From positions 744,001-808,000 of the forward strand of contig NZ_VCNH01000008.1 in the NCBI RefSeq assembly GCF_024355225.1: 64,000 bases of DNA, given 5' to 3'. The position numbers and the translations under genes were made by a program. Shown piece after piece: positions 45,567-59,350 of the stretch. Each line of letters opens with the position of its first letter. The stretch's first letter is position 1. The notes under the pieces were generated by a model, which had not been told where the DNA came from, searched no databases, and saw nothing but the letters and a program-made list of their open reading frames with translations. The stretch comes from Roseovarius sp. M141. GTDB lineage: Bacteria; Pseudomonadota; Alphaproteobacteria; Rhodobacterales; Rhodobacteraceae.

Positions 45567-45623
45567 TGTAATCTGCGAGTCGCGTCGGTTCCCTTGTGTG
45601 GCAGACCGTGGAGCACTTTCCGA

Positions 45624-47036
45624 ATGGCTTTATCAAACTGCGTGGACAGCGTCGAGCGTCGTGGCAACGTCTATTATCTGCGCTGGCGTGTCCCGGTCAA
45701 GTTTCGTGAAGTCGAGACCAAAGCCGAGATCAACCAATCGCTGAAGACACGAGATCCGGTCGGGGCACGGGGCCGCGCCGTTCTCAAGAAGAAGGCGTTT
45801 CAGAAGGTCTGGCAAGCGAAACTGCTGAACCAGAATTGGGGGCCATCCCCTGAGGCCTTCTCTGCGTCGATCGCATTGCTAGAGGATTTGCATCTGCCAT
45901 ACGTACCCTTCGAGGGGCTGGTGTCAGGACCGCTTGAAGAGCTTGTCTCCCGCATCGAGAAGATCACGCAGATTCCGGCGGACTCCCCAGTAGTGTCTGC
46001 GGCGTTGGGTGTGTGCGACGTACCCCACATCCGGATACTTGAAATGCCGAAGATCCTGGAGACGCGGTGGGATCACAAGATTCGTAGCAAGAACGCCGAC
46101 CAGAAGCGGCAATGGCGAAATCGTTACAAGCACGCCGCCCGGATTTTTTTGGAGGTCATCTCGAACAAGCATGTTCATGAGATTACCGAAGACGACTCGC
46201 GGCGTTATCACAAGCATTGGCAAGACCGCGTGAATTCCGGCAGTATCTCTGATGACCAGGGGGAAACGGGTGCGATATCTGCGGCAGATGATCGATGAGT
46301 ATCACGAGCTTGCAGGGACTCTCCCAAGCCAGCGATTCAATTCCATTGCCGGGTTCAAAGTCAAAGCGCTGCCGAAGAAGAAGTCGTCAAACGAGGGCGG
46401 TAAACTTGCTTTACCGAAGCCTTGGGTCCAGCGCTTCGTGCTTGGTGAGCTTGCTGACGGTATTGAAATCGATGAGCGAGTCGATGCAGGGATCATCATC
46501 GCCGAAACGGGCTGCCGTCAGACAGAAATCGTTCATATACCACCTGAGGACATCATCCTGGACCATCCGATTCCGCACCGTCGGATCAGATATGTCGAAG
46601 AGGGCGAGCATGTTCGCGACATTAAGAACCAGGCCTCGATAAGGATGGTGCCTTTTCTTGGGGCCGCCCTCGACGCAATGCGCCGTAATCCGGGTGGGTT
46701 TCCCCGGTACCGATCAAAGGGCAGTTTTTCCGGCGATATGAATAGTTTTTTGCGCCAGTATAATCTCTTTCCAGAACCGCCTGAGGGAAACAGGAGCTAC
46801 AAACACGTCACACTTGGGAAGAACGTGGGCGTGCTGCGCGAATGTCGAACGAGGAGCGCGCGTTCCTATTGGGACACTCCATTGGCAAGCTGCGTGGACG
46901 CCCAGTATATGGCGATGGGCCAGAACTGAAGCTCCGCTCTCTCTATGTGGAACTGGTCGCCTTCCCCACAAACACATGGCAACCGCGGCCCAAAGAGGAA
47001 GTTTGGGCGCTCATCAAGGAAGGGCTGGCTGAGTAG
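45624..47036 (+). pseudogene. tyrosine recombinase / phage-type integrase, two frameshifts
   Basis: Three overlapping reading frames give one integrase of about 470 residues. The first frame (45624-46250) holds a DUF6538-like N-terminus (VERRGNVYYLRWRVPVKFR) and the core-binding region. The second (to about 46810) holds the first catalytic Arg in ETGCRQTEIVHI. The third (to 47036) gives RHTWEERGRAAR, LLGHSIGK and the Tyr in GRPVYGDGP. The shifts fall in a run of five G near 46260 and in AAAC near 46803, so each could be one lost or gained base. It lies next to the truncated deiminase, as expected of an island integrase. Confidence 0.85.
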
Positions 47037-48891: not shown

Positions 48892-50245
48892 TTATGCGGC
48901 TTGACTGTCGGTTGTGGATGCCAGCGGCGCCCAATTCCACGGTAATAATTCATCGAGCCTGTTGATCTTGTGATCGTGGATGCGGTCGAGGATGTCGGCG
49001 AGATAGGCCTGCGGGTCGAGACCGTTGAGCTTGGCGGTTTCGATGATGGTCATAGCGCGAGCGAGGGTTTCCGCACCGGTATCGGCCCCTGCAAATAGCC
49101 AATTTTCCTTCCAATGCCAATTGGACGCAAGGCGCGCTCGGCGGGATTGTTGTCGATAGCGACGCGGCCATCGGTCAGGAACAGGCTGAAGGCCTCCTGT
49201 CGACTGAGGCCATAGCGGAATGCCTTGGCCAGATCGCTTTTGCCCGGAATGCGCAGGAGTTGTTGCTCTGACCAAGCAAAGAAGGCCGTGACCTTTGGTT
49301 GGCTCAACTGTTGACGCGCGGCATGGCGGACACCAGCGGGTTGACCGTTAATGTCGCGCTCGATGTCGTAAAGCTTGCCGATCCGGTCGAGCGCCTCGCG
49401 GGCAATCTCGGATTTTGTCGAGGTCCAAAAATCATGGAAGTCACGCCGCAGATGGGCCTAACAGGCTGCCTCTCGCAAACGCCGCCCACTATTGGATTCA
49501 GGCTCGTAAAGCTTGGCATAGCCCTTGTAGCCGTCCGCCTGCAGGATGCCGCGGGCATTGGCCAGATGGCTGAGGACGTGCTCTTCCTTCCAGTTCGGTG
49601 CGAACCGATAGACCGCACCGGGTGGCGCGGCACCCGCCCATGGGCGCTGATCGCGCACATAGGCCCAGATCCGGCCTTGCTTCACACCTTTGCCAAGCCC
49701 TTTGTATTTCTTGGAGCGGTCCAACACCCGGATCGGCGTATCATCTGCGTGCAGCAAATCGCTGCCCATGATGTCAGCCTCAATGCGCTCGATCAGCGGC
49801 GACAGGGTCTTCATGGCGCGGCCACCCGGGGCTCCGCCCGTTCACACCTCAGACTGTCCACTGGACAGTCTGTCGCTTCGCGAACCGGTGTTCACCCAGC
49901 CGACCAGCGTGCTTTCGGGGATGTCTGCCCCCATGCGTTCGAAGATCTCGTGCTGGCGATATAACGGAAGGTGGTCGTCGAACTTCGAGACCAGCACATG
50001 CGCCAGCAGGTTCGGGCCTGCCATACTGCCCGGGATCGGACGGCTTGGCGCGGGTTCCTGCACGATCCGCTCGCAGCGGCGGCAGGACTTCTTGATCCGG
50101 GCGATCTGGATCACCTTCATCTGCGCGGCGATCATGTCGAGGAGTTCGCTGACATCCTCCCCCACCACGCGAAGATCGCCGCCACAGTCAGGGCAGCAGG
50201 TGCCGGGGTCCAGTTCACGCCGCTCGCGTGGGGTCGTATCCTCGA
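48892..50245 (-). pseudogene. IS66-family transposase (TnpC), degraded
   Basis: Reading from 50245 down, successive frames give CCPDCGGDLRVVGEDVSELL (zinc-finger-like part), FDDHLPLYRQHEIFERMGAD, the catalytic core start LLHADDTPIRVLDRS, KSEIAREALDRIGKLYDIE, NNPAERALRPIGIGRKI with the last catalytic Glu, and the end LDELLPWNWAPL. At least three frameshifts break it. A 60-bp insertion with a 23-bp palindrome interrupts it at about 49825-49885, and the N-terminus is lost at the junction with the 50.2-kb gene. No TnpA or TnpB genes remain. Confidence 0.9.
49850..49872. repeat. 23-bp perfect palindrome inside the IS66 remnant
   Basis: CAGACTGTCCA (49850-49860), a single C, and TGGACAGTCTG (49862-49872). 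It lies in a ~60-bp stretch that does not belong to the transposase reading frame (which resumes on either side), so it marks a nested insertion. Confidence 0.75.
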
Positions 50246-51025
50246 AAAAAAGTTTATGGGCTAACCATCACAGCCCGCTGCGATTTTGCCCAGAGTAAAT
50301 ACCCAGTGTTAAACTATCTCCCAATAGTTACACTTCATGACTGGTTCAGGCGTGATGGGTTGGAAATTTTGATGGAGGCCGAGTTAAGCGAGCAGGAGGG
50401 AAATATCAGGAAGATGCTAAGGGATGCATCCATACCTGAAAGCATGCCTAAATCAGTACCGCTGACGACCATCGCTTCTACTCATTTTCCTCTGGATGCG
50501 GGTACAAGAAAAGAGAAAGACAAATCAAAGAGGTTTCACGATTTAGTGGATGCTTACTGTGATTTTCAAGGCGTACAAAACGGGTGTTCGGATGATGTTT
50601 ACGCTTGGTTCGCCCGGCATAGGTCAAGAAAAATTACAGATCTGATAAGGCGATTAAGCAAGCATGCTGTCGCAGGGCATTATTTGCTTGAATATATATC
50701 AGAAGACGAAGAAATGGCTTCGGGCTATGTGTGCTTGTTAAGAGAGGTGAGCACCATCCCTCGCGTGATTGCTGAAAAAATTTCGGTAGGCCTCGATGCG
50801 CAAACCCATTCCGATCTGTCTGGTGGCGGATGCATCAATGTAAGCGCCTTGGAGATTGATCACGGTGATATGGCTATGCCGGTTTCCGAAATAGCCTCGC
50901 CAGCAATAGAACACATACTGCAAGCCTTCTCTCTGCTTTATGGAAGGATTGGCATAGCTGATCCACATATGCCAACGATAGAATTGCTGGAGAGGGCGTG
51001 CCTCGAAGCGTCAGATGGAGCTTAG
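50228..51025 (+). CDS. unrecognised protein, first gene of a helicase-linked module (5' end lost)
   Basis: Up to 265 residues. The first ~10 codons derive from IS66 DNA, so the native start is gone and the GTG at 50228 is accidental. Genuine protein begins around VYGLTITARCDFAQSKYPVL, with LPIVTLHDWFRRDG next. It is soluble and has no transmembrane segment, signal or motif that I can name; Cys in ARCDF and a central DDVYAWFARHRSRKITDL segment stand out. Codon use is AT-rich, unlike the chromosome around it. It ends 1 bp before the helicase start, so the two form an operon. A nuclease, regulator or sensor role in a defence system is possible but unproven. Confidence 0.65.
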   Translation: MGSYPRKKVYGLTITARCDFAQSKYPVLNYLPIVTLHDWFRRDGLEILMEAELSEQEGNIRKMLRDASIPESMPKSVPLTTIASTHFPLDAGTRKEKDKSKRFHDLVDAYCDFQGVQNGCSDDVYAWFARHRSRKITDLIRRLSKHAVAGHYLLEYISEDEEMASGYVCLLREVSTIPRVIAEKISVGLDAQTHSDLSGGGCINVSALEIDHGDMAMPVSEIASPAIEHILQAFSLLYGRIGIADPHMPTIELLERACLEASDGA

Positions 51026-51026
51026 A

Positions 51027-53078
51027 ATGAGATATATTTGTATAGATGATGGCGCTGTCGCAGAGCTAATTTCGGGACGAGAATTCCAGTCTGTCGACTT
51101 TGAAGAAGGCGATGAATTGATCAGGTCTTTGTCTGGTATTGGCGCCTTTATGATCAGAGATCGTGTAATAACACACTTTCAGGATGCAGATGGCGTATTT
51201 TTGACGACAGGTGGCTCCTGGAAAAATAAAAAATATCTGGTTATTGATTGCGATCAATCCAAATTATTCACCCAGCTCCCAAAGTCAGATTCTCTCACTT
51301 CCTTTCAAAAGTTACTCCGATTCTGTTCCAAGATATGGAGTAATGGGCTGTACAATAAGTCGGAAAAGATTATCACCGGAACCACGAAAGCAATTGTGTT
51401 TCCCTTGAATTACGCCGCGAATTCGCGATTCAGGATCGCAATAGAGCGGGATCCGAGCAATGACCGACTGACCAAAAGAGACATGCAAGGTCGTTTTCTT
51501 TTAGTGTATAAGTCTGGTTCCGCCGGTGCGGACTCGGCTACCGAAGTCGCGGACGAGAGTAACTTTCGGAAAGTGTTTGAAAGGCTTCCTGAGGTTTACC
51601 GTAATGTTCACAAGCTTTTGGACGAAAAACGAACTGAAAAGGCTCAGGATGGACAAATGGTCTCCACGGCGCTTGATTATGCGCCAAGTGTCAGACGTTC
51701 TGCATTCTTGCCTTATGGGGAATGGATGCCACTTCTGACTTCTCAACAGCGCAGCTTCATTCGGTCGCCGTTTTCAACTCCTCACCGACTTCAAGGTCCG
51801 GCCGGAACAGGGAAGACCTTAGCACTGATGCTCCGGACCATCGAATGTCTGAACAAGGCAGAAAATAAGCAAACGCAGTGCAACGCATTGATGGTGACGC
51901 ACAGCGAAGCGACGCGGCAATCTATTAAAACGTCTTTGGCCGCGATCGACGAGAACAAATTTCAAGATCGAGAGCGTAAAGTCGAACTGGCAACCTTGTC
52001 TGTTGAGACCTTGGCATCTCTTTGTGCAAGATTCCTGAGTCAGTCCATTAGCGAGAGTGAGTTTATAGATCGAGATGCCCAAGACTCAAAAATTCTTCAA
52101 CGGTTCTATATTGAGGAAGCGATTGGCCGAGCCCGCGAACATGATTACGCTGCATACAAACCGCATCTGAGCCCGCAATTTAGGGATTTTCTTGAAGGGT
52201 CCGATGTGGAAAATTTAGCACCGCTTTTTCAGCATGAAATTAGCATACTAATAAAAGGAAGGGCAGGCGACTCGTTCAATACCTATCAGAACTGCCCGCC
52301 CATTTCGTTTGGCCTTCCAATTGAAAACAATGCTGATAAGGGTTTTGCATTTTCGGTTTTTGAGCGTTACCAGGGACAACTTGCTCAAAATAGTCAGTTT
52401 GATACGGATGATGTCGTAATATCGGCCATAGGGCAGCTCGATACACCAATCTGGAGAAGGCGTCGTGCGCGTGAGGGCTTTGACTTTATCGCAATTGATG
52501 AAACTCATCTATTCAACATAAATGAGTTGCACGTGTTCCATCATTTTACGAGAGGAAGCGATCAACTTCCAATTTCATTCACGGTCGATCAAGCTCAGGC
52601 CGTTGGAGATCGCGGATGGGGGAGTGTCGAAGCCTTTTTTGAAGGAATGTCAGAGCCATCTGGCAAACACGTGCAAAAAACGGTGCTGTCAGCGGTTTTC
52701 AGAAGTTCACCGGCGATACGTGATTTTTGCCACTCGATACTTGCTTCGGGCGCGACGCTTTTTTCGAACTTTACTGACACACTGAATCAGACTCAAAGTG
52801 CCTTCACAGTTGAAGATGAGCGACGATCTCAACCTATCAGCTACTCCGAGTATGCGGATGATGCTACTTTGATTTCATCCGCCTTTGAAACGGCAGAGGC
52901 ACTAATGTCCAAAACTGACTCCAGTAAATCGCAGGTCTTAATTACTTCTCTGGATGACAGCTTGATCGAAAAGATGCAGGAATATGCAAGAGGAAAAATA
53001 AACCAATTACATATCTTGATCGACGAGGCGATTACACGACAATCCAAAAAGCGGAAAATTCTGGGCATTTTGTTTTAG
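51027..53078 (+). CDS. UvrD/Rep-like superfamily 1 helicase with novel N-terminal region
   Basis: 683 residues in this frame; the natural protein is longer and continues in another frame to 53332. Residues 1-230 are an N-terminal region that I do not recognise (RYICIDDGAVAELIS onwards). The helicase core then shows the Q-type element LTSQQRSFIRSP, Walker A QGPAGTGKTLALML near 255, Walker B FDFIAIDETHLFN near 490, motif III SFTVDQAQAVGD and motif IV AVFRSSPAIRDFCH. ATG 51027 has GGAG six bases upstream and follows the partner gene's stop by one base. AT-rich like its partner. It probably unwinds or translocates on DNA within a two-gene defence-like module. Confidence 0.8.
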   Translation: MRYICIDDGAVAELISGREFQSVDFEEGDELIRSLSGIGAFMIRDRVITHFQDADGVFLTTGGSWKNKKYLVIDCDQSKLFTQLPKSDSLTSFQKLLRFCSKIWSNGLYNKSEKIITGTTKAIVFPLNYAANSRFRIAIERDPSNDRLTKRDMQGRFLLVYKSGSAGADSATEVADESNFRKVFERLPEVYRNVHKLLDEKRTEKAQDGQMVSTALDYAPSVRRSAFLPYGEWMPLLTSQQRSFIRSPFSTPHRLQGPAGTGKTLALMLRTIECLNKAENKQTQCNALMVTHSEATRQSIKTSLAAIDENKFQDRERKVELATLSVETLASLCARFLSQSISESEFIDRDAQDSKILQRFYIEEAIGRAREHDYAAYKPHLSPQFRDFLEGSDVENLAPLFQHEISILIKGRAGDSFNTYQNCPPISFGLPIENNADKGFAFSVFERYQGQLAQNSQFDTDDVVISAIGQLDTPIWRRRRAREGFDFIAIDETHLFNINELHVFHHFTRGSDQLPISFTVDQAQAVGDRGWGSVEAFFEGMSEPSGKHVQKTVLSAVFRSSPAIRDFCHSILASGATLFSNFTDTLNQTQSAFTVEDERRSQPISYSEYADDATLISSAFETAEALMSKTDSSKSQVLITSLDDSLIEKMQEYARGKINQLHILIDEAITRQSKKRKILGILF

Positions 53079-53332
53079 GTCACGCGGATTTTGTTGGCGG
53101 CCTTGAATTCAACGTTGTAGTGGTCGTCGGCGTCGATAAAGGGCGAGTTCCCAAGGAAGGTGAGTCGACTGACTCGAACTCAAGAAATTTCTCGTCTTAT
53201 GTTGCTCACAATCGTCTTTATGTGGCCGCCTCTCGGGCAAGATACGCTCTTCATCTATGTGGAGTAAGATCAAGAGGTCCAAGTCAACTTCTTGAAGTTG
53301 CATTTTCGAATGGCATCATTAGCAAAGACTGA
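53079..53332 (+). pseudogene. C-terminal end of the helicase in a shifted frame
   Basis: The frame holding this segment contains TTIQKAENSGHFVLGHADFV (starting near 53043), GGLEFNVVVVVGVD and the motif VI-like NRLYVAASRARYALHL, exactly the end expected of a UvrD-type helicase. It joins the 51027 frame after a single-base shift around 53020-53040. Without it the protein lacks motifs V and VI and should be inactive, unless the shift is a sequence error or is bypassed by ribosomal frameshifting. Confidence 0.8.
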
Positions 53333-53514: not shown

Positions 53515-53640
53515 TTCGACCTTTCCTATCCCACCTGGACCGAGCCGCCGACCGACGGCGAGATCGTCTGTTCCGTTTTCCCGTATACGAGGAACCCAAC
53601 GAGCCTCGTGTCAAGGTGCGTCAATGTCTTGCTGTGGATC
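53515..53640 (+). pseudogene. short 5' remnant, possibly of a PemK/MazF-like gene
   Basis: ATG 53515 follows GGGAGAG. The first frame gives MFDLSYPTWTEPPTDGEIVC, and the next frame continues FRFPVYEEPNEPRVKVRQCL. The combination resembles the start of PemK/MazF-like toxins (DGEIV, FPxxE, KVRxxL). The gene is then cut by an IS3-type fragment. The assignment is tentative. Confidence 0.3.
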
Positions 53641-53822
53641 GGCGCGATATTAAATTTATGGTCGCTATCCGTTGTGACCTTGTGCTTGCGCGTTCGCACG
53701 ACCGATATGCCGTTCTGACGCATCAAACGGCCTACGCGGCGATGCCCAACGTCCAAGCCAATCTCCTTCAGCTCCTCCGTCATCCGTGGATAGTGAGGTC
53801 GAGGCACATTGCATCGTTCCAT
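53617..53822 (-). pseudogene. IS3-family transposase OrfB fragment
   Basis: A piece of about 60 residues containing YPRMTEELKEIGLDVGHRRV, GRLMRQNGISVVRTRKHKV and HKFNIAP, the HTH_21 part of IS3-type OrfB just before the catalytic domain. Both ends are missing; the DDE core does not follow. It overlaps the upstream edge of the exonuclease gene's promoter area. Confidence 0.8.
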
Positions 53823-54426: not shown

Positions 54427-56127
54427 TCAGTGGAAAGATTTGTCACTGCCGGCCACTGCATTTCTCATCTGATCGGCCATTTCCACCCCGTGGGCGACCT
54501 TCCTCACCATGAGGAACACGCCCCCCGTAGTGCGGGCCCAAATCTTGCCGATGGCATCCTTCTCGCGAGCCTCAGGTGCGCCGATCAGATGCTCACCCTT
54601 GTATTCCACGACGAAGATGCGGCCATCACGAAGCTTCGCGACGAAGTCCGGGAAAAACCTTCGGCCGACCCGGGGCAAGGAGAAGGAGTCCGGGTGGCGA
54701 GCCACATTGCGCACCCAGACTTCAACCTCCTCAAGGCTGTCAAGGCTCCAGGCACACTGGAATTCCTCGCCGTTGAGGTCCCCGTCGATGAGAGGGGCCC
54801 TGTCGGCGCCGAGGAGGTGCCGGTTGAACCGGAAAGCGCCGGTCGCCTGCGTCGGCACATTCTGATAAATTGTGTCATCGAACCGGATCACGCGGTTTTC
54901 GGACCAGGTCGGCTTTGCCTGACGGTCAAACAAAGCCATCTGGTGTGCACGGGTCTTCTCCTCGTCGCGGATCGCCTGGATTTTCCACCGGATGCGGGCC
55001 GCGATTTGATGCTGCCAGTCGATCAGGGTCCGAATGTTTACCTCCCTGTTCGTGACCAGATCGGCAACCACCGCTGCAATCCATGGCAGCATCTCGGCCT
55101 GCGAGATATCCGCAACCCGGCATTCGCGCTCCAGCCACTGCACGAGTGATGCCTCAAGGTCCGCATCAGATGGAGTATGCAGGCCCGACAGGATCGGCTG
55201 ATCCTCAGTCGTCCGGCTGTAGACCAGCTTCTCGCCCTCCAGGTCGATCTCAATGACATCCTGCGACCGGTGGAAGCTCAACTCTTGCTCGGACAATCGT
55301 GCCGAATGGCGATCCAGAGACCAGTCGACGCGCTCCATGATCGCGTCGGTCTCAGCGAGAAAGGTCTCGCCCTCCATCTCCACCAGAAGCTGGGGAATCT
55401 CGATGGCATGGCCCTTCTGGGCCAACGTGCGGCTGGCCTTTACCGTCGCCCGGTGTTTTTCGAGCTGAGCATCGAAATGGGCGTAGTCTTCCTCGCGCGT
55501 AATTTCGCGGACGCCTTGTGCGACCTCGTCAGTCACTTCGCCCTTCATACCAACGACCAAGGTACCGTCGTCGCGGTGGATGTAATCGACACCGGCGTCC
55601 TGCATATTGTTCAGACGCGCACGGGCATCCTCGCTGTCAGGCACTGTAACTTGGAGAACCGGCTTCGGCCGGACAGGATCCGGGTCGAATAACTCTCCCT
55701 GGTCGTTCTGCTCCACCCCACGCGGCTTCAGCGATTCACGGACTTCCTCATCGGTGAAGCCCATGTCGATTAGCTTGTCGGTCAGGGCCTGGGCCGCTTC
55801 GCGGAACGAGGGTTCCGAAACATGGGCATAGGCACTGTTCAGGGCGGCGTCCTTGCGGCGGGCAGCATAGGGCATCCGCAGGACACGCCCCAGGAGCTGC
55901 TCGACCGCCCCACGGCTCTGGAGCCGCTGGGTGGCGCAGAGAACATAGGCCGAGGGGCAATCCCACCCCTCCTTCAGCGCGTCTACGGTGATCACGTGGC
56001 GGGTCTGCTCGGCGGGATCGCGCAGGTTCACGCCGTCAAGTTCCCGCTGCTCGCCCGTGGCAATCTTGATCCGATCCTCGGGGATCAGCTTTTCCTCGAC
56101 CAGATAGGTCTTCAGCTCCGCCACCGT
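54427..56127 (-). pseudogene. type III restriction Res-like helicase-nuclease, N-terminal part missing
   Basis: About 565 residues of protein-like sequence that begin abruptly near TVAELKTYLVEEKLIPEDRI. The helicase C-terminal lobe is present (ITVDALKEGWDCPSAYVLCA; motif VI QSRGAVEQLLGRVLRMPYA). The C-terminus carries a PD-(D/E)XK-type nuclease (FFPDFVAKL followed by FVVEYKGEHL). Walker A and B are absent because the N-terminal lobe was lost; upstream codons to 56310 are unrelated. Originally it was a Res-type subunit or related phage-defence helicase-nuclease. No methyltransferase gene is near. Confidence 0.85.
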
Positions 56128-56266
56128 CGGGTGACGCAGGCACGCCGGATGGCGTGTGGGGAGCAGGCTCGGCGGCGGCCATGCGACGCTATCAGACCGC
56201 GGAAGAATTGCCGGACACCGGCGCACCGGATCGGGCGACATTGAAGCATATGGGACTGGAGTTTTG
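56128..56266 (+). pseudogene. C-terminal fragment of an unidentified plus-strand gene
   Basis: A 45-codon open tail ending RRYQTAEELPDTGAPDRATL and a few residues more at TGA 56264-56266. It begins exactly where the helicase-nuclease homology ends, so it is probably the stump of another gene joined there. No family recognised. Confidence 0.3.
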
Positions 56267-56351
56267 ATGCCGCGAAGCGTTGCGTGATCAGCGGCCGATG
56301 CTTGGCACATGACGTGTGGCGAAGGAAAATCGGGGGACGTATTCGAGGTTT

Positions 56352-58789: not shown

Positions 58790-59152
58790 ATGGGTAAACT
58801 ACAGACAATCAACATCAACCCCGCCACCGGCGTTCCGCAAAACACCGCGATCAGGCTGACACAGGATTTCCTGGACCGGCACGCCAGCGGTCTCGACGAC
58901 CTGCTCAGGCGTTTCCCGGGCCTACATGGCCCGTCCTTCCGCCGGGCCATCGAAGCCTGCTTCGCGCCATCGGAAACGGCACCCGAACTCGCCATGGCGC
59001 TCGAAGAAGCCGTCGACACGCTGCTCTCACTGCAAGGCGAAGACTGCCACCCGCTTCCCGTTGATAGCGGACGGCGCCTGTATGTCGACGCCGGCATTCG
59101 GTGGTATGCTGCAAGACTTTACGACCTCTCGCGCGCCGCGCGAACGACGTGA
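58790..59152 (+). CDS. hypothetical protein
   Basis: 120 residues from ATG 58790 with an excellent AGGAGG site. It starts MGKLQTININPATGVPQNTA and is predicted mostly helical (FLDRHASGLDDLLRRFPGLH, then MALEEAVDTLLSLQG). A 17-bp palindrome (58748-58764) lies just upstream. Codon use is high-GC, like the core. I do not recognise a family. Confidence 0.65.
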   Translation: MGKLQTININPATGVPQNTAIRLTQDFLDRHASGLDDLLRRFPGLHGPSFRRAIEACFAPSETAPELAMALEEAVDTLLSLQGEDCHPLPVDSGRRLYVDAGIRWYAARLYDLSRAARTT

Positions 59153-59217
59153 ACCATCCGGCTGCCAAACAGCGCCGTGTGTTGCACATTGTGGGGCAGA
59201 TTTTGAGGTGATCCTGT

Positions 59218-59259
59218 CGAAAACCCCTGAAAATCAAGCATACTTGGATTTTAGGGGTT
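59218..59259 (-). terminator. terminator of tRNA-Leu
   Basis: Arms at 59222-59238 and 59243-59259 (17 bases each, two one-base bulges), followed on the minus strand by TTTT. It starts 6 bp after the tRNA 3' end. Confidence 0.75.
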
Positions 59260-59264
59260 GATTT

Positions 59265-59350
59265 TGGTGCCCAGGAGAGGACTCGAACCTCCACACCGTT
59301 GCCAGTACTAGCACCTGAAGCTAGCGCGTCTACCATTCCGCCACCTGGGC
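59265..59350 (-). tRNA. tRNA-Leu (anticodon CAG)
   Basis: 86 nt including an encoded CCA. The acceptor arms GCCCAGG and CCTGGGC pair perfectly. The anticodon stem is CTAGC/GCTAG around loop TTCAGGT, giving anticodon CAG. A long variable arm (type II) and the T-loop GGTTCGAGTCC are present. It lies just outside the island, at its core-genome side. Confidence 0.95.

Follow-up and report, generated by a model that had tools for sequence, protein, structure and literature searches.

The window analysed here, a 64,000-nucleotide stretch of Roseovarius sp. M141 (contig NZ_VCNH01000008.1, positions 744,001 to 808,000), carries two adjoining genes that raise a simple question: do a UvrD-like helicase (open reading frame ORF2) and the protein encoded just upstream of it (ORF1) form an anti-phage system? 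A sequence-only reading had proposed so, describing a phage-defence-type pair of a helicase and an unknown protein, and had suggested, as checks, structure prediction of both proteins and a search for intact pairs and their neighbours in other genomes. We find that ORF1 and the helicase are a real, conserved, operon-like two-gene unit, which is widespread in bacteria, spans several bacterial phyla and has no model of its own in either PADLOC 2.0 or Pfam. It is probably a module of defence or anti-mobile-element type. The proposal is therefore supported for the family, with its strict pairing, its defence-rich neighbours and one pair at a P2 hotspot, but not for a working module in the window, where both genes are broken. 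Our preferred reading, to which we give an even chance, is that the two genes in the window are the decayed form of a mobile two-gene defence module in which a helicase sensor gates a toxin-fold effector.

Strict pairing of ORF1 and the helicase

Intact copies of the pair are present in many genomes. ORF1 relatives numbered 56 in a single-sequence search and 132 with a profile, no Pfam domain being found in the 120 listed of these 132, while at least 605 ORF2 relatives were recovered from 7,999 candidates scored. A pattern scan based on the helicase alignment yielded 45 loci, 40 in species genomes and five in IMG/VR, which, judging from their record titles, include Alpha-, Beta- and Gammaproteobacteria, a myxobacterium, Bacteroidota, a Clostridiales genome and Pedosphaera. 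Four loci (L018, L026, L042 and L043) begin at the helicase, with the upstream DNA absent, and were left out of the pairing count. In all 41 loci with upstream DNA, the next same-strand gene upstream of the helicase is an ORF1 relative (identified by tblastn in L003; only partial in L023, where the contig starts). When the profile was rebuilt with each locus left out in turn, the upstream gene was the best match in 41 of 41 loci, with E values of 5e-98 to 2.8e-12 reckoned for a nominal 100,000 sequences. The most diverged ORF1, that of L041, was missed by single-sequence tblastn with P0002, a 292-residue homologue from Marinovum algicola. Measured up to where the helicase match begins, the two genes overlap by 4 bases at half of the junctions (20 of 40 loci), and the junction ranges from -1 to +16 in the remainder.

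Pairwise distances of the two proteins are correlated (r = 0.916 over 39 loci, L023 and L041 being excluded; 5,000 permutations reach at most 0.26), although common species history also raises such a correlation, and the nearest neighbour is the same for both proteins in only 20 of the 39. Starting from ORF1 instead, relatives were present in 2/292 genomes of the order and 3/398 of the phylum, the window genome being counted in both, and the helicase follows at all three other places (G285, G662 and G770, the last a far diverged member with an identical gene layout). Among five viral loci found from ORF1, the helicase follows in four, three of them contigs already counted in the helicase scan, and the fifth ends at the contig edge. 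As for a common downstream accessory gene, the 538-residue open reading frames in L021 and L024 proved unrelated to each other (best BLASTP E 1.9).

The window copy and its decay

As the sequence-only reading had described, two plus-strand genes lie one base apart in the window, ORF1 ending at 51025 and ORF2 having a family-like ATG at 51027, which coincides with the start of its homologues in the alignment (as listed, the frames run from 50228 to 51025 and from 51015 to 53078). The AT-rich composition unlike that of the host was equally borne out, since the guanine-plus-cytosine (GC) content of the four 1-kb bins between 50 and 54 kb is 0.45-0.53, whereas bins at 1-45 kb have 0.60-0.69 and those at 45-50 kb, a region rich in insertion sequences (IS), have 0.55-0.60, and so was the location between IS66 debris on the left and IS3 debris on the right (Table 1).

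Neither gene is whole. ORF1 matches P0002 at 75% over residues 26-292, and because homology begins only at P0002 residue 26, the listed start at 50228 falls within IS66-like DNA, the reading of which continues, judged by eye, to about 50243. The natural N-terminus is thus lost: about the first 25 residues are replaced by IS66-like sequence, including Q19-G20, invariant in 64/64 relatives, and the protein is kept from about residue 26 to its end. ORF2, which is not a single frame, matches the 768-residue M. algicola helicase P0058 at 79% identity over residues 1-678 and then stops, whereas residues 654-768 are matched at 83% in another frame by a C-terminal piece that overlaps the region of the frame change. 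The main piece hits PF00580 at 3.1e-14, and the Walker A and UvrD motifs noted earlier do stand behind about 230 residues. The frame change may be a mutation or a sequencing error; together with the truncation of ORF1, it makes the window copy probably a dead relic. No second helicase copy was found in the genome.

Table 1. Positions of the pair and of the flanking IS remnants in the window
Feature	Position	Strand	Evidence
IS66 transposase remnants, adjoining and truncating ORF1	49053..50243 (right edge approximate)	-	PF03050 at 49053-49307 and 49461-49814
Remnant of ORF1 (partner protein, fold predicted to resemble MazF/CcdB)	50222..51025	+	tblastn of P0002, alignment, predicted structure of homologue P0002
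ORF2 main piece, N-terminal domain and UvrD-like helicase until before motif V	51027..53078	+	PF00580, tblastn of P0058, alignment
Walker A (GPAGTGKT) of the helicase	51795..51818	+	sequence, alignment
ORF2 C-terminal piece, motifs V and VI, other frame	52985..53332	+	tblastn of P0058, translation
IS3-type transposase remnant (HTH_21), downstream of the pair	53529..53822	-	PF13276, 1e-9

Predicted fold of the partner protein

Members of the ORF1 family are about 263-305 residues long, and their alignment displays Q19, G20, G38, C45, D46, R199, Q259 and G269 as invariant residues. Two signatures had been singled out in the window protein: ARCDF kept its significance, as C45-D46 is conserved in 64/64 relatives, but HDWFRRDG did not, only its W exceeding 90% (61/64). 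The view that ORF1 lacks any recognisable domain also had to be revised, since the predicted structure of P0002 is MazF/CcdB-like with an SH3-like barrel topology, one loop of the model carrying a helical insertion of about 110 residues. This likeness is without a counterpart in sequence. P0002 had no Pfam hit at E<=1, PF02452 was absent among the 25 listed of the 38 Pfam families matched by 58 ORF1 members, hhalign against 10 PemK sequences gave a probability under 1%, and a search of PDB sequences with the ORF1 profile returned one chance match (E 3.5). Profile comparisons of the whole family, of the insertion-free core and of the N and C parts revealed no link to MazF, and PADLOC 2.0 held no model matching ORF1. 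According to its model, then, ORF1 shares the MazF/CcdB fold but not its sequence family. It differs from MazF/PemK and CcdB toxins in its helical insertion, in its partner, which is a helicase and not an antitoxin, and, apparently, in its conserved residues; the catalytic residues of MazF are Arg and Thr.

The helicase and its relation to known systems

ORF2 is a superfamily 1A (SF1A) UvrD/Rep-like helicase with its own N-terminal domain of about 205 residues. Its structure was predicted as a whole protein, with a UvrD-family fold for which the VIA rows cover mainly residues 220-768. The order of helix and then strands in the N-terminal domain had suggested a RelE/ParE-like protein, but when two versions of this domain and a single sub-piece were compared by hhalign with 19 ParE-type sequences, no link emerged (probability <1%, at most 8 columns aligned).

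Gabija (GajAB) resembles the pair as a two-gene defence operon with a UvrD-like SF1 helicase, and 58/58 helicases match the GajB models PDLC00132 and PDLC00117, with a best E of 1.3e-15. A diverged Gabija branch, in which the OLD nuclease GajA was swapped for another effector, would account for these matches, but we judge it quite improbable: the matches are weak and partial, and in P0058 the best matching stretches span helicase motifs and never the N-terminal domain, which is an addition relative to Gabija. The partner is also different, being toxin-folded by prediction and an ORF1 protein in every one of the 41 loci, and GajA (OLD-family ATPase-TOPRIM nuclease) models matched none of 58 ORF1 proteins in PADLOC at E<=0.1. 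PMC12407980 proposes that Gabija acts on linear DNA devoid of RecBCD.

Hachiman (HamAB) likewise consists of two genes, a helicase and a small partner first read as unknown, and offers the same sensor-helicase/effector logic. In Hachiman the partner, HamA (DUF1837), is a nuclease, and the helicase HamB belongs to another superfamily (superfamily 2), whereas here an SF1A UvrD-type helicase accompanies a partner with a predicted MazF/CcdB-like fold. HamA, for which PADLOC presumably includes models, is absent from all 5 PADLOC families hit by the 58 ORF1 proteins at the same threshold. The exclusion of Gabija and Hachiman made by the sequence-only reading therefore holds for the partner. PMC12278908 describes the Hachiman helicase as restraining its nuclease and activating it on damaged DNA.

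A third comparison is Helicase+DUF2290, in which a helicase and a small unknown protein occupy prophage and satellite hotspots (PMC9122126). PMC11637435 identifies PA1371/PA1372 as this system and reports that mutations compensating plasmid cost strike genes now predicted as Helicase+DUF2290 and Gabija. The helicase pieces of Helicase+DUF2290 and of our pair are similar only at E 0.003, and DUF2290 lies downstream of its helicase (one locus, L103) and ORF1 upstream. ORF1 showed no similarity to one DUF2290 protein found with PF10053 (BLASTP E 4.1), and DUF2290 was absent from the PADLOC hits of the 58 ORF1 proteins. The Gabija, Hachiman and Helicase+DUF2290 labels thus each fail on a defining feature.

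No description of the pair was found in the open literature; subscription papers, supplements and newer defence databases lay outside this search, so a recent name may exist. The words 'helicase', 'UvrD' and 'MazF' occur 0 times in the DefensePredictor main text (PMC13092281), and the one passage of PMC9519451 that mentions 'helicase' is unrelated to the pair.

Neighbouring defence genes

In other genomes, the genes around the pair match more defence-gene models than control genes do. The pool of neighbours comprised 126 predicted genes of 170-1000 residues at <=3 kb from the pair, from which a draw of 115, representing 36 loci, left 114 for testing once the L041 ORF1 had been excluded, along with one control gene to match. 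The 114 control genes came from a pool of 191, located in 20 stretches of 15 kb that were picked by hand from 11 genomes belonging to the same class as the window. At E<=1e-15, neighbours matched 82 PADLOC models and controls 5, the models being redundant in that at least 25 of the 82 trace to one GajA protein. The 25 listed of these 82 include GajA, type I restriction endonuclease, DarT, DarG, LmuA, LmuB, PtuB, AbiU and AbiLi; some matches may instead reflect housekeeping relatives, namely those to mad3 (5 members and 1 control gene), SspA/DndA and RtcR. When ten neighbours were viewed singly, they gave one GajA (3e-270), one LmuA (1.4e-84), one RtcR-type regulator and seven without a match at 1e-6. 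Close to intact pairs lie a GajA gene (L029, 6210-8222) and a Lamassu LmuA gene (L032, 12381-13463), and the pair on pJJ1887-5 has a SMODS nucleotidyltransferase and an S-4TM effector at a distance of about 8 kb; plain neighbourhoods occur too, e.g. in Azoarcus. Enrichment around the pair is thus likely, its extent being only roughly gauged.

Carriage by plasmids and phage

In PLSDB, 89 plasmid records matched at E<=1e-40, 83 of them predicted conjugative, from Escherichia (79), Klebsiella (4), Shigella (2) and one each of Leisingera, Azoarcus, Paraburkholderia and Rhizobium. The plasmid variant is present in 113/5,426 complete Escherichia coli genomes (~2%), always on a plasmid, and 109 of the 113 matches cover >=80% of the query. 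Frequent presence on conjugative plasmids and the predicted fold of ORF1 both suit a toxin-antitoxin-like arrangement, with ORF1 as a MazF/CcdB-fold poison (RNase or gyrase binder) and the helicase as its antitoxin, serving plasmid maintenance and, secondarily, phage defence.

Broken copies bear on this alternative. Among six E. coli records selected because their annotation looked unusual, four have a split ORF1 (L134-L137, at two different places) and two a split helicase, both genes being split in one (L137); in a further record both genes are whole but separated by an insertion sequence. ORF1 is thus broken and the helicase whole in 3/6; at G662 (L130, 1496-2340, -), too, a short tandem repeat breaks ORF1, which also has further stops within its insertion region, and the helicase is open up to the locus edge. 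A regular loss of ORF1 with the helicase kept, which would be a sign of toxicity, did not emerge from the six records, and their mixed pattern lends the toxin-antitoxin alternative weak support. One of them, L138, combines a whole ORF1 with a split helicase, which a simple antitoxin role disallows. Nor is there a constant small antitoxin (MazE-type) gene among the loci, predicted genes further upstream varying in size and strand and the helicase being the one fixed neighbour, and no UvrD helicase is known to us to serve as an antitoxin. We therefore consider this alternative unlikely.

Phage carriage was seen in one Klebsiella P2-like phage (two records), where the pair lies between the portal gene and a 683-residue protein named gp36, which by position only occupies the place expected for gpA. 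PMC9122126 describes the gpA-gpQ region, site of P2 old and tin, as a hotspot of anti-phage systems, and one pair thus sits at the place of a P2 defence hotspot. This position, like the defence models among the neighbours, argues against a mere aid to DNA maintenance, which would serve a plasmid or phage in replication, in recombination or in resisting host nucleases and would play no part in defence. Such an aid, which appears distinctly unlikely, would be consistent with the UvrD-family fold, with plasmid and phage carriage and with the surroundings of 3/7 plasmid or phage copies viewed with wide flanks, near which lie genes for DNA repair or translesion polymerases (UmuC-like, imuA/polymerase Y and a broken umuC).

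Surroundings of the window copy

On the minus strand at 54430-56310 we recognised by eye a protein resembling type III restriction (Res) enzymes, of which only the C-terminal part is present, with a helicase end and a 'VVEYKGE' nuclease-like motif; the product had zero Pfam matches at 1e-3. The IS-rich low-GC stretch is bracketed by a DUF6538 fragment (45594-46295, +), which we take to be an integrase N-terminal domain, and by tRNA-Gly/tRNA-Leu genes (58935-59350), and is likely a genomic island. Another ORF1 relative, P0056, runs mid-gene into IS66 sequence (PF03050), an independent IS66 interruption.

A possible mechanism and its significance

The combination of a motor and a small partner, strict pairing, mobility, patchiness and nearby defence genes leads us to read the module as a helicase-effector type, probably directed, by analogy, against phages or plasmids. 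Past the pairing and the predicted folds, each step is inferred from the example of Hachiman, with which the module would share a logic of helicase sensor and separate effector without being related. ORF1 and the helicase would form a complex, perhaps via the helicase N-terminal domain or the helical insertion of ORF1. The helicase would travel on DNA and sense an aberrant state caused by a phage or an incoming plasmid, such as free ends, single-stranded DNA or stalled replication, and its ATP-driven movement would release or activate ORF1. The conserved Q-G, G, C-D, R, Q and G of ORF1 may make a new active or binding site, through which it would act on nucleic acid or a nucleic-acid enzyme, stopping the invader or the cell. 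In its most specific form, an idea that we put forward tentatively, a MazF/CcdB-fold toxin, one loop of which bears the helical insertion and whose conserved site (Q-G, C-D, R, Q) would have evolved anew, would be licensed by a dedicated SF1 helicase on meeting invading DNA, with no antitoxin.

The pair would add a clearly delimited helicase-plus-effector family to prokaryotic immunity, and the presence of its plasmid variant in complete E. coli genomes makes it directly testable in laboratory E. coli. If true, the helicase-gated scheme would connect helicase-sensor systems such as Hachiman and Gabija with the toxin fold that is best known from toxin-antitoxin modules, and would bear on DNA-state sensing as a substitute for an antitoxin.
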